From assembly GCA_030425505.1 (NCBI GenBank), contig JAUIAB010000004.1, positions 62,001 to 126,000 on the forward strand: a DNA stretch of 64,000 nt, written 5' to 3'. The notes under the pieces are model-generated. The model did no database searches, had not been told where the DNA came from, and saw only the letters and a list, made by a program, of their open reading frames with translations. The stretch's first letter is position 1; every line of letters begins with the position of its first letter. Below, piece after piece: positions 13,949-18,028 of the stretch. Source of the stretch: Bacteroidia bacterium. GTDB taxonomy: Bacteria; Bacteroidota; Bacteroidia; Cytophagales; Flammeovirgaceae. A program made the translations under genes and the position numbers.

Positions 13949-15493
13949 TTACTTAGTTAGAATCATTCTCTTAGTATCTACTTCATTGCCATCTACAATA
14001 AGGCTATAGAGATACATCCCAGGCTGAAGAGATCCAGCCTTAAGAGTAACGCTTGTGTTACCTTTTTCTGTAATGCTATACTCTCTAACCTGCTTTCCTT
14101 GCAAATCATACACATAAAGAATTGCACTATTTGCTTTTTCAGCTATTGTGAACTCTATCTCTGTACTCTCTGTAAAAGGATTCGGCTTGTTTTGTAATAG
14201 TTCAGAAGAAACCATTGCAATAGAAGTCACTTCTCTTTTATTACTTCCTTTTAAAGAAGCATCTTCCTTGCTTAGTAAAGCCTCTACTTTAGCTAATCTT
14301 TCTTCCAGAGAACTTACTTTGGTATTTTGCTCCTTTAGTGCTTGAGTTAATACAGGGATCAAACCTGTGTAGTTTACACTCAAATACCCTTCACTATCTT
14401 CATGTACTAACTCAGGTAATACTTCTTTTACATTTTGAGCTATAAACCCAAGTTGCTTACCATCATCAAAGTTCTTCTGAGAGAATTCTTTTTTGAAAGA
14501 ATAGCTTACTCCTTCTATTTGACTAATTGCTTCTAAAGCTCCTTCTATAGCTGCTACATTTTCTTTATAGTTTTTATCTGAATTAACTAAAAAGTTATTT
14601 GCTAAAACATTCCCATTGATATGCAGCTTTTCCTGAGGGTTGTTAGTTCCGATACCTACCCCAGCTGTAGGGAAACTATACATTCTATTTTGATCTCCTA
14701 GCCAAAGGTTATTTCCTCTGGTTAGTGATTTCCAATCTCTACCATTAAACCCTTCAAAGTCTTTACCCGTCCAACGGATAGTACCTGCTTCTTCTGCTCT
14801 ACTTCCTTCTTCCAGTTTTAGTGCGCCTCCAACATTCAAAGCTTCATCTAAGTCCTCTGTTGCTATTCCAAGAGCAGGTAGTTGATTATCTGTTTGAAAA
14901 CGACCAAACAAAAGAGAGTGAACTTCATTATTTGAAACTATGAATTTGTTTGATCCCCTTTCTCTTAAACCTGCCTGATAACCTAAAAAAACATTATTTG
15001 ACCCTTCTAAGTTCGCTGCTCCTGCTCTGTTTCCTAGAAAAACATTATTTGATCCAGAAGTTTTTGACCCAGCAGCTTCTGACCCAATGAAAACATTATT
15101 ATCCCCAAAGCGTATTTCATTAGCGGTATAAGCCCCTAAAAATGTATTAGAACTACCGTTACTACTAGTTCCAGCCGCATTCCCTACATAAACATTTAAT
15201 TCTCCTGTCGTATTTTGCAGCCCAGCAGATACTCCAAAAAAAGAATTTGCCCTGCCGGTAGCATTATGAAAACCTGCTTCAGATCCAAAAAAAGAATTAG
15301 AAACCCCTGTAGTATTTAAGTTTCCAGCAAAGTTTCCAACAAAAGTATTCCTGTTTTCTCCTTGGTTATTGCTACCTGCTCTATTGCCAGCAAAATAATT
15401 AGATTGAGCATTAGCCTGGTTAACTCCTAGTATGCCCAGCCCTAGGCTGAATACCAAGGTAAAAAGTTTGGTTTGTAATAATCTGGTTGTCAT
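13949..15493 (-). CDS. T9SS-exported surface protein with head repeats and Peptidase_S74 intramolecular chaperone domain
   Basis: This 514-aa protein is built in four parts. A signal peptide (about 1-29, LGVNQANAQS) is followed by about eight degenerate repeats of the type NSFFGxxAGxxN/NVFLGNxAG (about 35-190), which resemble the left-handed beta-roll head of trimeric adhesins. Next is a Peptidase_S74 domain (about 300-390, SDKNYKENVAAI with the Ser-Lys dyad region, LGFIAQNVKEVLPELV), which in phage tailspikes assists trimerisation and cuts itself off. A short coiled coil comes before a C-terminal sorting domain (about 435-514, NKPNPFTESTEIEFTI to LIVDGNEVDTKRMILTK), the T9SS type A signal. 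It is likely a secreted trimeric adhesin or fibre. A minus-strand terminator follows it. Confidence 0.88.
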   Translation of the reverse strand: MTTRLLQTKLFTLVFSLGLGILGVNQANAQSNYFAGNRAGSNNQGENRNTFVGNFAGNLNTTGVSNSFFGSEAGFHNATGRANSFFGVSAGLQNTTGELNVYVGNAAGTSSNGSSNTFLGAYTANEIRFGDNNVFIGSEAAGSKTSGSNNVFLGNRAGAANLEGSNNVFLGYQAGLRERGSNKFIVSNNEVHSLLFGRFQTDNQLPALGIATEDLDEALNVGGALKLEEGSRAEEAGTIRWTGKDFEGFNGRDWKSLTRGNNLWLGDQNRMYSFPTAGVGIGTNNPQEKLHINGNVLANNFLVNSDKNYKENVAAIEGALEAISQIEGVSYSFKKEFSQKNFDDGKQLGFIAQNVKEVLPELVHEDSEGYLSVNYTGLIPVLTQALKEQNTKVSSLEERLAKVEALLSKEDASLKGSNKREVTSIAMVSSELLQNKPNPFTESTEIEFTIAEKANSAILYVYDLQGKQVREYSITEKGNTSVTLKAGSLQPGMYLYSLIVDGNEVDTKRMILTK

Positions 15494-15918
15494 TTTTAAA
15501 TTGTGTTTTGTTTAAATTATGTCTTACTCTATTAAAGGCTTTTCAGAAACCGCCAGTTGATATGTATAGTTAAACTATGAATAACAAGGTATAGTTTGTT
15601 AATAAACCCTAAAAAAGCTTAAAAAAACTTAAGCCTCCTGTAAAAAAAAGCTATATTTAGTATGCTTACATACAAATGTAATAACATTATGCAATAAATT
15701 GTTACAACATATAACTTTTTTTACCCTTGTAGAGTGAGTACCTAAACTGTCTTTTAAACCAAGAGAGTTTCAAAAAGATCCATTGATGAATTTAAAAACA
15801 CAGAAGAACACGCTAAGAAAAAACTCTATAAAAGCTGAAATCAGCATAAATACGCCGCCTTATGAATCAACTAATATTATACCTCCATACTAAAATAGCA
15901 TAGCAATGTGATTTTTGC
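15494..15918. other. 425-bp intergenic region without a recognised gene
   Basis: This AT-rich gap lies upstream of the S74 gene and downstream of the MerR gene. ATAGTT and AACTAT form a short inverted repeat near 15565, and GGTATAGTTTGTT close by resembles it. Several A-runs are present. I see no ORF with a plausible start and ribosome-binding site, no tRNA and no repeat shared with the rest of the window. Confidence 0.4.
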
Positions 15919-16812
15919 TTAGAGAGCTTTGATTTTTTCAACCATCTGGATCAAATTATTGATACTTGGAATCACGGTGATATTATTTGACAAATCTAAA
16001 TCTTGCCCAATAACCTGATAGCCTGATACCCATATTTCAGAGTTTTCATATTTATTCCCCAAGTAGCTCAAATATTTTTGTATTCTTTCCACATCAGATA
16101 AAGCAGTAAAAACGGTCAACAAGAAATCTGGATAATGCTTTTCACAAGCCTTCTCTAAATCTACTATGGGAAGGTTTTGCCCAAGGTAGATAACACGATG
16201 ACCTTTAGATTTGATAATATATGAAGAAAATAATAGACTTATCTCATGCATCTCACCTTTGGGCAAAAACAAAATAAAAGTCTGGCTATTCTTCCCTGGA
16301 GCATCGTATAAACTATCTATAGCAACAACTAGTTTTTGGCGTATAAGGTTAGAGATAAAGTGCTCTTGAGATGGACTAATTGACCCTGTCTGCCATAAAA
16401 AACCAACTCGCATTAAAAAGGGAAACACAACCTGAATTATTGCCTTTTCAAAACCAAGCTTTAGTATATTAGATGAAATAATTTTTTCAAACCGCCCTTC
16501 ATCAAAATCAATCATAGCAATTGTTAAGGCTCCAATTTGATCGGTAAAATCAGTATTACCCTCAATGGTATCCATCACCTTCTCCATCAACTCGTCCATT
16601 GGCATACCTGCTATCTTAGAAATTTTATATCCATTGTTATTAAGCAATGATATATTTAGCATCAACTTCAGATCTTCAGAACAATAACATCTTACATTAT
16701 TTTCATTTCTAACAGGCTTCAAAATTTTATAGCGCTGCTCCCATATTCGAATAGTATGCGCTTTAATACCCGTAAGCTGTTCTAGATCTTTAATTGTATA
16801 AGTGGCTTCCAT
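15919..16812 (-). CDS. MerR-family regulator with cobalamin-binding domain (CarH/LitR-like photoreceptor candidate)
   Basis: This 297-aa regulator has an N-terminal MerR winged helix (about 1-70: YTIKDLEQLTGIKAHTIRIWEQRY). A four-helix B12-cap domain with W140 and E150-H151 follows, in exact Wx9EH spacing. Then comes a Rossmann-type B12-binding domain with GEMHEIS (His189) and VIYLGQNLP. In Thermus and Myxococcus CarH, adenosylcobalamin bound between these histidines makes the protein a light-sensitive repressor of carotenoid genes. The usual ExHxxG ends in Ser (S192) rather than Gly here. The gene lies 38 bp downstream of crtZ on the same strand, in keeping with control of carotenoid synthesis. 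B12 binding and light sensing are inferred. Confidence 0.85.
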   Translation of the reverse strand: MEATYTIKDLEQLTGIKAHTIRIWEQRYKILKPVRNENNVRCYCSEDLKLMLNISLLNNNGYKISKIAGMPMDELMEKVMDTIEGNTDFTDQIGALTIAMIDFDEGRFEKIISSNILKLGFEKAIIQVVFPFLMRVGFLWQTGSISPSQEHFISNLIRQKLVVAIDSLYDAPGKNSQTFILFLPKGEMHEISLLFSSYIIKSKGHRVIYLGQNLPIVDLEKACEKHYPDFLLTVFTALSDVERIQKYLSYLGNKYENSEIWVSGYQVIGQDLDLSNNITVIPSINNLIQMVEKIKAL

Positions 16813-16850
16813 TGCGTAGAAAAACGTTTACATACTAATAAAACTGGTGT

Positions 16851-17312
16851 TCATAAATTTGTTTTGAAAAAATACTTTCTTTTTACAATAAGTAAACCAA
16901 AAGACTCAGATGGTTGTTTCTTTTTAATCTTGTGATGATCTTGGTGTGCTTTTTTTAAAGCACTCAAATAGTTAGCAAAGTTTTTACCCTTGTTATTTAT
17001 CCTTTTGTGGATCAAAATATCATGCACTATGAAATAAACAATTCCATAAAACGTAATCCCGATCCCCAGAAATAAACTTGAATAATTACCAAAAGAAAGA
17101 CCTACCCAAATTAGAACGATTGCTATTGATGCGAAAAAAAGACTAAATATATCATTAAACTCAAGCCAGTATTTTGATTTTTGATGATGTGTTTTGTGAA
17201 TAAACCATAAAGGCCCATGCATTATGTATCTGTGGAAAAACCAAGAAAACAGCTCCATTCCCAAAAAACCAACCACGGTTAATAGTATATATTTCCATGT
17301 TTCCATATTCAA
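16851..17312 (-). CDS. crtZ: Beta-carotene hydroxylase (CrtZ-type, fatty acid hydroxylase superfamily)
   Basis: This 153-aa membrane di-iron enzyme adds 3-hydroxyl groups to beta-ionone rings, giving zeaxanthin. All four histidine motifs are present: HRYIMH (Hx4H), HKTHH (Hx2HH), HDILIH (Hx4H) and HQDHH (Hx2HH). Three to four hydrophobic segments surround them. Size and motif spacing match CrtZ rather than longer sterol desaturases. It is followed on the same strand by the MerR/B12 regulator gene, probably in one operon. No other crt gene is in the window. Confidence 0.92.
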   Translation of the reverse strand: MNMETWKYILLTVVGFLGMELFSWFFHRYIMHGPLWFIHKTHHQKSKYWLEFNDIFSLFFASIAIVLIWVGLSFGNYSSLFLGIGITFYGIVYFIVHDILIHKRINNKGKNFANYLSALKKAHQDHHKIKKKQPSESFGLLIVKRKYFFKTNL

Positions 17313-17340
17313 AAAACTAGCTCTTTAATAAAATGTTTAC

Positions 17341-17360
17341 AAGCTTTGCAAAACAAGCTT
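17341..17360. promoter_or_regulatory. Candidate operator between crtZ and the divergent gene
   Basis: Two AAGCTT hexamers, each self-complementary, flank an 8-bp spacer (AAGCTTTGCAAAACAAGCTT). The site sits in the short divergent promoter region upstream of crtZ. GTTTACA at 17335-17341 is repeated at 16825-16831, just upstream of the MerR gene. This could be a MerR-type operator; no binding is shown by sequence alone. Confidence 0.3.
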
Positions 17361-17369
17361 ATCAAGATT

Positions 17370-17789
17370 ATGGAAAATATAAAAAAGAATTTTGGTTTGG
17401 TTATACTGTCTATTAGCATAATAATAAGTTCAGCAATAATTACAGAGTCTATCACTAATACTTATAAAAACATGAGCTATGGTAAATTCAACGATGGTAT
17501 TCCTCTTAGAGTTGAGCATCAGATGCTTGAAAACTTTGGCAGAGTATCACTTGGTGTAAATACCAATTCCAATGACGTAACTTATAACTCTGATCTTAAA
17601 ATTGGAGAAGGGGAAAATTTTTATATAAAAACTGCTCCCAACAATAAGTTGACTATTATAACAGGTAAGAATATTATCGCCAGATTTTACCATATTGGCA
17701 ACTTGCTAACCTTAGAATATGAAACGGAGCAGGGTAAATTTTTGAAGTTTTTTAATAACCCTACAGAATGGGGAAATAAACTTAAATAA
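17370..17789 (+). CDS. Membrane-anchored hypothetical protein
   Basis: This 139-aa protein starts at the ATG at 17370, preferred over an in-frame TTG at 17346 that overlaps the operator-like repeat. One N-terminal transmembrane segment (about residues 8-26, FGLVILSISIIISSAIIT) is followed by a soluble region outside the cytoplasm rich in Asn and beta-strands. I recognise no family. It ends 8 bp before the cytochrome b5-like gene, so the two are probably co-transcribed. Confidence 0.65.
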   Translation: MENIKKNFGLVILSISIIISSAIITESITNTYKNMSYGKFNDGIPLRVEHQMLENFGRVSLGVNTNSNDVTYNSDLKIGEGENFYIKTAPNNKLTIITGKNIIARFYHIGNLLTLEYETEQGKFLKFFNNPTEWGNKLK

Positions 17790-17797
17790 ACAGATCA

Positions 17798-18028
17798 ATG
17801 CTTACCTACACTAAACAGCAACTAGCTTTAAGAAATGGTAGTGACAAAGAAGAAATATGGTTTGCCTACAAGGGTAAAATTTATGATGTTACAAAATCTA
17901 AGCTATGGAGAAATGGGAAACACTATGAGCACTGGGCAGGTCAAGACTTAACTCAAGAACTTGCTGATGCTCCCCATTCTAAAAGAGTAATAGAGAAATT
18001 TAAAGTTGTGGGACAGTTAATTACATGA
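17798..18028 (+). CDS. Cytochrome b5-like heme/steroid-binding domain protein
   Basis: This 76-aa single-domain protein resembles the Cyt-b5 family: LALRNGSDKEEIWFAYKGKIYDVTKSKLWRNGKHYEHWAGQDLT, then ADAPHSKRVIEKFKVVG. The pattern Wx(A)YxGxIYDVT, then GxHYxHxAGxDLT and a second motif with DAPH, fits small bacterial cytochrome b5-like proteins. Candidate heme or ligand histidines are in the HYEHW and APH segments. It has no anchor or signal peptide, so it is probably cytoplasmic. Its stop codon lies within the first bases of repeat A copy 1. Confidence 0.85.
   Translation: MLTYTKQQLALRNGSDKEEIWFAYKGKIYDVTKSKLWRNGKHYEHWAGQDLTQELADAPHSKRVIEKFKVVGQLIT

Follow-up and report, generated by a model that had tools for sequence, protein, structure and literature searches.

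A CarH/LitR-like MerR regulator gene beside crtZ in a Bacteroidia genome and a candidate B12-dependent light circuit for carotenoid genes

The crtZ-merR locus and its counterparts in related genomes

The window analysed here, that is, the whole stretch of 64,000 nucleotides from a Bacteroidia bacterium of the Flammeovirgaceae, contains a gene for a MerR-family regulator with a B12-binding domain (merR). As a sequence-only reading of this DNA had stated, a crtZ gene lies upstream of merR on the same strand, with a gap of 38 bp between the two. The genes and elements of the locus are as follows:

15919..16812, minus strand: gene for a CarH/LitR-like MerR/B12-domain regulator of 297 aa (open reading frame, homology, Pfam and structure match)
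16851..17306, minus strand: crtZ-like gene for a beta-carotene hydroxylase (FA_hydroxylase, PF04116) of 151 aa from the ATG (Pfam and neighbourhood in relatives)
17315..17337, minus strand: AAC-N17-GTT element, a tentative candidate for an ECF-type promoter, 8 nt 5' of the crtZ start
17335..17341, no strand assigned: GTTTACA before crtZ, overlapping the AAC end of the AAC-N17-GTT element; as a motif not above chance
16826..16832, no strand assigned: GTTTACA before merR, found by motif scan, with no conserved element in its surroundings
17341..17360, no strand assigned: AAGCTT-N8-AAGCTT repeat, unsupported as an operator

The crtZ product scored 53.6 bits for FA_hydroxylase against a Pfam cut-off of 31, and a TTG at 17312 is an alternative start of its open reading frame. 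Two genes diverge from crtZ: an open reading frame of 147 aa (17346-17789, plus strand) with no Pfam family above cut-off, and a gene for a 75-aa stand-alone cytochrome b5-like domain protein (17801-18028, plus strand; Pfam), which is possibly an electron carrier for a hydroxylase.

Of 58 related genomes, 54 gave a match (E ≤ 0.001), and 48 of the 58 have a full-length MerR relative (E < 1e-50), as tallied by eye. Gene neighbourhoods were compared in 80 named loci, the best 80 of at least 594 matching stretches; nearly all are labelled Bacteroidota, and several are ended by contig ends. Among these best 80, crtZ lies directly 5' of merR in 23, an ECF sigma gene follows merR within 900 bp on the same strand in 38, and homologues of crtI and crtB occur in 26 each. 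The clusters of crtZ-merR relatives often run on into ECF sigma-crtI-crtB, and the longest gene order found was Caroten_synth (PF04240), crtZ, MerR, ECF, crtI, crtB, lycopene cyclase, a presumably IspH-like gene and FA_desaturase. The sole phytoene synthase gene of the window genome lies on another contig (C4), in a run of ECF (171 aa), crtI (495 aa) and crtB (279 aa). With this run on C4 and crtZ-merR in the window, the cluster appears to be split in two here, and its ECF-crtI-crtB half had been overlooked by the sequence-only reading. By eye, full-length MerR and an ECF orthologue (E ≤ 1e-30) were both found in 45 of the 58 genomes, MerR only in 3, ECF only in 1 and neither in 9. In the literature, merR and rpoE are listed for a crt cluster of Echinicola in a report whose available text does not discuss light (PMC8683446), and a MerR gene is also listed in the available part of a Nonlabens paper. 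In one related genome (G035), the MerR-ECF-crt cluster is followed by a photolyase gene that apparently has the same orientation; photolyase matches near the cluster were also seen in G026 and G048 (L263, L264, L265).

The regulator protein and its departures from textbook CarH

The merR product scored above the Pfam cut-offs for MerR_1 (49.4 bits) and B12-binding_2 (35.2 bits), and its Rossmann B12-binding domain reached 17.2 bits, under the cut-off of 32.1. Its best matches among solved structures in a phmmer search were those of T. thermophilus CarH/LitR (3whp, 5c8d; E about 5e-20). The resulting alignment to TtCarH upholds three residue-level observations of the sequence-only reading: the Wx9EH arrangement (W140-x9-E150-H151) falls on W131 and E141-H142, the B12-domain histidine His189 falls on His177, and Ser192, which replaces the last residue of ExHxxG, falls on Gly180. 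Such a Ser is the norm of the clade, with Ser in 68/110 and Gly in 23/110 aligned Bacteroidota relatives; this alignment combines the 80 named loci with 30 further genomes including the window genome, and holds 106 distinct sequences. Light-responsive B12 domains have been described by the signature GxxW, EH, GxxH and GxxxP (PMC11796333, available part), and all four parts are found in the merR product (G137-W140, E150-H151, G186-H189 and G211-P215).

An AlphaFold2 model of the merR product (pLDDT 88.6, pTM 0.76) was compared with known structures by VIA, in which rows differing by less than 1 Z are read as ties. The top match was CtMerR 8jbt (Z 19.9, 2.7 A, 218 aligned), with 8jbs at Z 19.1, followed by photocobilin 8j2x and CarH structures at Z of about 18; methionine synthase 1bmt was lower (Z 15.8). 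The model covers CtMerR over residues 77-297 and CarH 5c8e over 3-294, and the full-length rmsd of 12.8 A to 5c8e probably reflects the placement of domains. The protein has the domain plan of CarH and class I LitR, with a MerR DNA-binding domain, a helix bundle and a Rossmann B12 domain. As to the cofactor, the window genome encodes methylmalonyl-CoA mutase (L118) and a cobalamin adenosyltransferase, together with a mutase-like open frame of 1123 aa with an N-terminal B12 domain, which we take to be IcmF. Since the genome carries AdoCbl enzymes and the adenosyltransferase, AdoCbl should be present in the cell.

The protein departs from textbook CarH at several sites. The position of TtCarH His132 is occupied by Gln141, which the sequence-only reading had overlooked, and His is absent from this position throughout the 110 Bacteroidota sequences, which show Q 65, L 25, V 7, I 6, T 5, A 1 and M 1. 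According to the available text of one study, His132 is the upper cobalt ligand of TtCarH in the light state and the H132A variant mostly stays tetrameric, while an earlier report had seen tetramer disassembly for the same variant (PMC10442372). With Gln at this position, bis-His ligation as in TtCarH is excluded for the light-state switch. Light sensing is nevertheless compatible with the loss of His132, since CtMerR (Arg), SasPcob (Gln) and AbDPcob (Tyr) are reported to be light-responsive without it (PMC11796333, available part). A Glu- or water-mediated light state as in CtMerR is more likely. Hence the CarH light mechanism assumed by the sequence-only reading stands only in part: the protein does look like a B12 light sensor, but the bis-His ligand is absent clade-wide.

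The head-to-tail dimer of TtCarH has a salt bridge R176-D201 (PMC8221060, available part), which is absent here, where a gap-free alignment places M188 and N213 at these positions; Arg occurs in 2/110 and Asp in 3/110 of the Bacteroidota sequences. The classic B12 motif, given as D/ExHx2G/P-x41-SxT/V-x22-27-GG (PMC9304148, available part), is not found in intact form either: the merR product has ExHx2S (Ser192), V234-F-T236 in place of SxT/V and S263-G264 in place of GG. The NCBIfam CarH equivalog model NF052513 gives it 94.6 bits, under a cut-off of 400. We keep the protein apart from canonical CarH, since it has neither the bis-His residue nor the salt bridge, its classic B12 motif is degenerate and its NCBIfam score stays under the cut-off.

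These losses raise the question of a CarA-like, B12-independent regulator, in which the pocket would be inherited and unused and another signal, such as singlet oxygen or an anti-repressor, would be in control. The degenerate B12 motif, the lost His132 and the missing dimer salt bridge would fit such a protein, and seven relatives keep the gene despite a change of His177 to Gln. However, the residues around the cofactor are strongly retained: Trp131 and Glu141 are present in 110/110 sequences, His142 of Wx9EH in 103/110 and the lower-ligand His177 in 103/110. An intact Wx9EH separates CarH from B12-independent CarA, which is without the Trp of this motif (PMC9304148, available part), and the window genome encodes AdoCbl enzymes and the adenosyltransferase. 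We thus consider a B12-independent regulator unlikely. The seven MerR proteins with Gln for His177 (L079, L083, L084, L096, L102, L103 and L111) are mostly labelled Saprospiraceae and retain Trp131 and Glu141; judged by sequence, they may possibly be B12-independent derivatives that could serve as natural controls.

An inverted repeat at ECF sigma gene promoters

An inverted repeat, GTTTAA-N16-TTAAAC, sits in the MerR-ECF gap of relatives. Pairs of its half-sites at spacings from 0 to 40 were counted in 39 regions, namely the 38 MerR-ECF gaps and the window genome's own ECF promoter: among 50 exact pairs, 39 have spacing 16 and 3 have spacing 17. Across the 1.45 Mb of the 80 loci, half-sites spaced by 15-19 gave 57 matches, as against 0-4 in five Markov simulations, and nearly all of the 57 precede an ECF or (crtZ-)MerR gene; L046 and one site in L071 clearly depart from this. 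The repeat was likewise found upstream of ECF orthologues in 30 related genomes in which merR is mostly elsewhere in the genome (exact in 24/30, with at most one mismatch in 29/30). As a control, exact matches occurred in 4/802 other gene upstreams, and all four belong to start sites of L094, L095 and L110 that are located at or next to ECF genes missed by the exclusion by coordinates. When unique ECF upstream regions were pooled, 67/68 contained GTTTAA-N16/17-TTAAAC with at most one mismatch, and adjacent copies 43-45 bp apart were seen 19 times. Half-sites and spacing hold while the spacers vary, which argues for selection on the repeat, although relatedness among the genomes makes the counts non-independent.

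The spacer often contains a promoter element. TAnnTTTG, the -7 box of the main sigma factor in flavobacteria (PMC9723704, available part), lies inside the promoter-proximal repeat in 38/67 regions, 34 of these 38 at positions 13 or 14, compared with 6.8% of control pieces. In the 2.95 Mb of the window genome, the only exact match to TGTTTAA-N15..19-TTAAACA is at C4:56327-56357, 13 nt before the ECF start, and a weaker second copy (GTTTAC-N17-TTAAAC) lies 74 bp further up; this genome's own ECF promoter repeat is without a clean TAnnTTTG. At 3 mismatches, the same genome gave 26 matches versus 20 for the reversed pattern, so that only the ECF promoter sites stand out in it. The CarH/class I LitR operator has been described as an 11-bp direct repeat with T-N2-ACA cores, and the operators of myxobacterial CarH/CarA are direct repeats as well (PMC9304148, available part). 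TAAACA in each half of TGTTTAA-N16-TTAAACA fits the T-N2-ACA core, but the arrangement found is inverted, not direct. In the window, GTTTAA-N16-TTAAAG with one mismatch occurs at 15510-15537, 16 nt 5' of a gene (13949-15493, minus strand) for a secreted protein that combines an S74 chaperone domain with a T9SS sorting tail; it is one of two one-mismatch matches in the window and was left as chance.

As to what binds the repeat, MerR is the candidate suggested by gene order and co-occurrence. Alternatively, the repeat might be read by another factor, such as the ECF protein itself or an unlinked regulator, with MerR merely travelling along; that the repeat stays at the ECF gene even with MerR elsewhere in the genome would agree with this. 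Yet the repeat also occurs in promoter regions of MerR genes that have no ECF neighbour (L043, L061, L063, G004 and G032), and by eye it occurs in 43/48 genomes with full-length MerR and in 2/10 without, the ten being mostly small or incomplete. Moreover, a two-fold symmetric site around the TAnnTTTG box would be expected of a dimeric repressor and not of a sigma factor. A reader other than MerR seems improbable to us, and binding by MerR is retained as the preferred reading.

The sequence-only reading had placed the operators elsewhere: from a GTTTACA heptamer before both crtZ and merR and an AAGCTT-N8-AAGCTT repeat in the crtZ promoter region, it inferred that light relieves repression of pigment synthesis and of the regulator itself. 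Both GTTTACA sites exist, but the heptamer occurs 13 times in the window (both strands), against 10.4 expected under a first-order Markov model. The AAGCTT repeat is also real, although nothing supports it as an operator: the window has three AAGCTT pairs no more than 20 nt apart (6653, 17341 and 44842), and the exact N8 spacing, though rare (0.05 expected), was picked after the fact. We rejected both motifs as operators, since neither exceeds chance by much, and direct repression through them is not supported, given that the conserved inverted repeat sits at the ECF gene. Several features would still agree with MerR acting directly on crtZ and merR. The two promoters have in common a 12-mer with one mismatch, TGTAAAC[A/G]TTTT, whose GTAAAC is one change from the half-site TTAAAC; one half of the second copy at the window genome's ECF promoter reads GTTTAC; and in the Pontibacter loci L078 and L089 the full repeat lies 5' of crtZ. 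Against this, the crtZ and merR promoters of the window contain a single half-site only and no repeat at up to 2 mismatches with N16/17, and 1.7% of random AT-matched pairs reach a likeness such as that of the 12-mer. Direct repression of crtZ and merR is thus also a reading of low probability.

A different element precedes crtZ. An unbiased scan of gapped triplets (28,672 possible motifs) over 23 crtZ upstream regions ranked AAC-N17-GTT first, with 14/23 versus 40/757 (Fisher 5e-12). In the window genome, it is absent upstream of merR and of the S74 gene. Its AAC and GTT cores are mutually reverse complementary and its orientation was judged from the flanks, of which the conserved one, AACAAA, is on one side only; for this reason, a reading as an everted pair of the repeat's half-sites was disfavoured. 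An ECF-type motif with a CGT box has been reported for F. psychrophilum (PMC9723704, available part). The sequence weakly suggests that AAC-N17-GTT is a sigma-factor promoter of ECF type rather than an operator, a reading weakened by the distance of only 8-9 nt to most starts, as the leader would then be very short.

A proposed light circuit, its candidate targets and known systems

Signature residues, fold, synteny and the light-related nature of the putative targets described below together make a B12-dependent light sensor tied to carotenoid genes a well-supported interpretation of the merR product. For the circuit around it, we favour, with a probability of roughly 0.6, a reading in which this CarH/LitR-like Bacteroidota light sensor keeps the ECF promoter repressed in darkness and the ECF factor then drives the pigment genes. 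In the dark, the regulator would bind AdoCbl, likely with His189 as the lower ligand and with Trp140 and Glu150 around the adenosyl group. Judging from the position and conservation of the repeat, the AdoCbl-bound regulator would sit on GTTTAA-N16/17-TTAAAC at the C4 ECF promoter and keep the operon off; in many relatives, the repeat encloses the -7 box. In the light, as the signature and the targets suggest, the Co-C bond would be cleaved, the regulator would leave the DNA and the ECF factor would be made. This factor would raise expression of crtI-crtB, which follow it in one gene run, and probably also that of crtZ-merR via AAC-N17-GTT before crtZ, a step that we propose tentatively.

The repeat also marks genes away from the ECF cluster. 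In the 58 genomes, the pattern gave 123 matches versus 47 for its reversed form (summed by eye), so many of the matches away from ECF genes, perhaps about half, may be due to chance. From the matches listed, 20 sites of length 30 or 31 that are linked to neither ECF nor MerR were picked by hand, and 18 of these lie within 350 bp upstream of a gene start. Pfam analysis of ten downstream proteins identified two rhodopsins, a DUF2805-photolyase pair, a CrtI-like oxidoreductase, a 6-pyruvoyl tetrahydropterin synthase with GTP cyclohydrolase I, two fasciclins and a DUF4397 protein; by eye, similar proteins also lie downstream of other sites. Conversely, the repeat (at most one mismatch) was found upstream of 8/16 rhodopsin genes in MerR-bearing genomes and 0/3 in MerR-less ones. 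The main photolyase loci of relatives have it in 0/30 cases; in the window genome, no rhodopsin gene was found, and the two photolyase genes have neither the repeat nor AAC-N17-GTT upstream.

The light-linked candidate targets support light as the signal. They bear on a further alternative, in which the regulator would sense cobalamin supply or redox state: AdoCbl occupancy might by itself be enough to gate binding, and O2 is reported to matter in the CarH response (PMC10442372, available part), but the candidate targets in relatives are related to light (carotenoid, rhodopsin, photolyase and pterin synthesis). Of all the alternatives considered, this one appears to us the least probable, and light is kept as the presumed signal. 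On a broader scale, these observations may be explained by a distinct B12 photoswitch present throughout the Bacteroidota, which would work without bis-His ligation or the dimer salt bridge, bind an inverted repeat around the ECF -7 box, with 22 bp between its half-site centres and frequently with a second copy at a distance of about 44 bp, and govern a common light regulon of carotenoids, rhodopsin pumps, photolyase, pterin cofactor and fasciclins. This generalization is tentative, and we rate it slightly below even odds.

If it is true, light-induced pigmentation in this phylum would have its missing light regulator in this clade. Carotenoid synthesis in Chryseobacterium lacus, for example, is light-induced, and in the available part of that report the authors call the regulating mechanism an unknown pattern (PMC7064467). 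In open-licence literature searched by titles and abstract openings, no published account of the operator or of a B12 light circuit in Bacteroidota was found. The operator, the promoter geometry and the candidate targets together form a concrete circuit that can be tested, and a large natural family of likely B12 photoreceptors without His132 would help to find out which features of the CarH mechanism are indispensable.

Several known systems resemble the proposed one. T. thermophilus CarH/LitR (5C8D, 3WHP) has the same combination of MerR domain, four-helix bundle and Rossmann B12 domain, as well as Wx9EH, the lower-ligand His, GxxxP and a tie to carotenoid genes; here, in contrast, Gln replaces His132, the R176-D201 salt bridge is absent, and an inverted repeat with half-site centres 22 bp apart lies at an ECF sigma gene. 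CtMerR of Chloracidobacterium thermophilum (8JBS/8JBT) is the closest in fold and has the light-responsive signature with Arg for His132 (PMC11796333, available part), although identity in the structural alignment is 18% or less. The order of events in Streptomyces coelicolor LitR-LitS, from a B12 MerR sensor to an ECF sigma gene and crt transcription (PMC12705666, available part), is like that proposed here, but it belongs to another phylum; in the window genome, the sensor gene lies with crtZ and apart from ECF-crtIB (one cluster in many relatives), and the putative targets in Bacteroidota relatives include rhodopsin. Pseudomonas PmlR2/PplR1 (class II LitR) are also MerR light regulators, acting on paired half-sites, T(G/A)TACA-N12-TGTA(C/T)A (PMC9758184, available part); they differ in that class II proteins have the helix-bundle part only, the half-sites are 18 bp apart and a LOV partner senses light. 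MliR (PMC9478572) was set aside as a related lead, as the available part of its report describes it without an effector domain.

Two minor points concern genes outside the carotenoid pathway. Among the candidate targets of PmlR2/PplR1 is folM (PMC9758184, available part). Finally, a fasciclin-like protein with the repeat upstream of its gene and a similar start was seen in five related genomes (L194, L196, L197, L199 and L200), of which L196 was the one run through Pfam.
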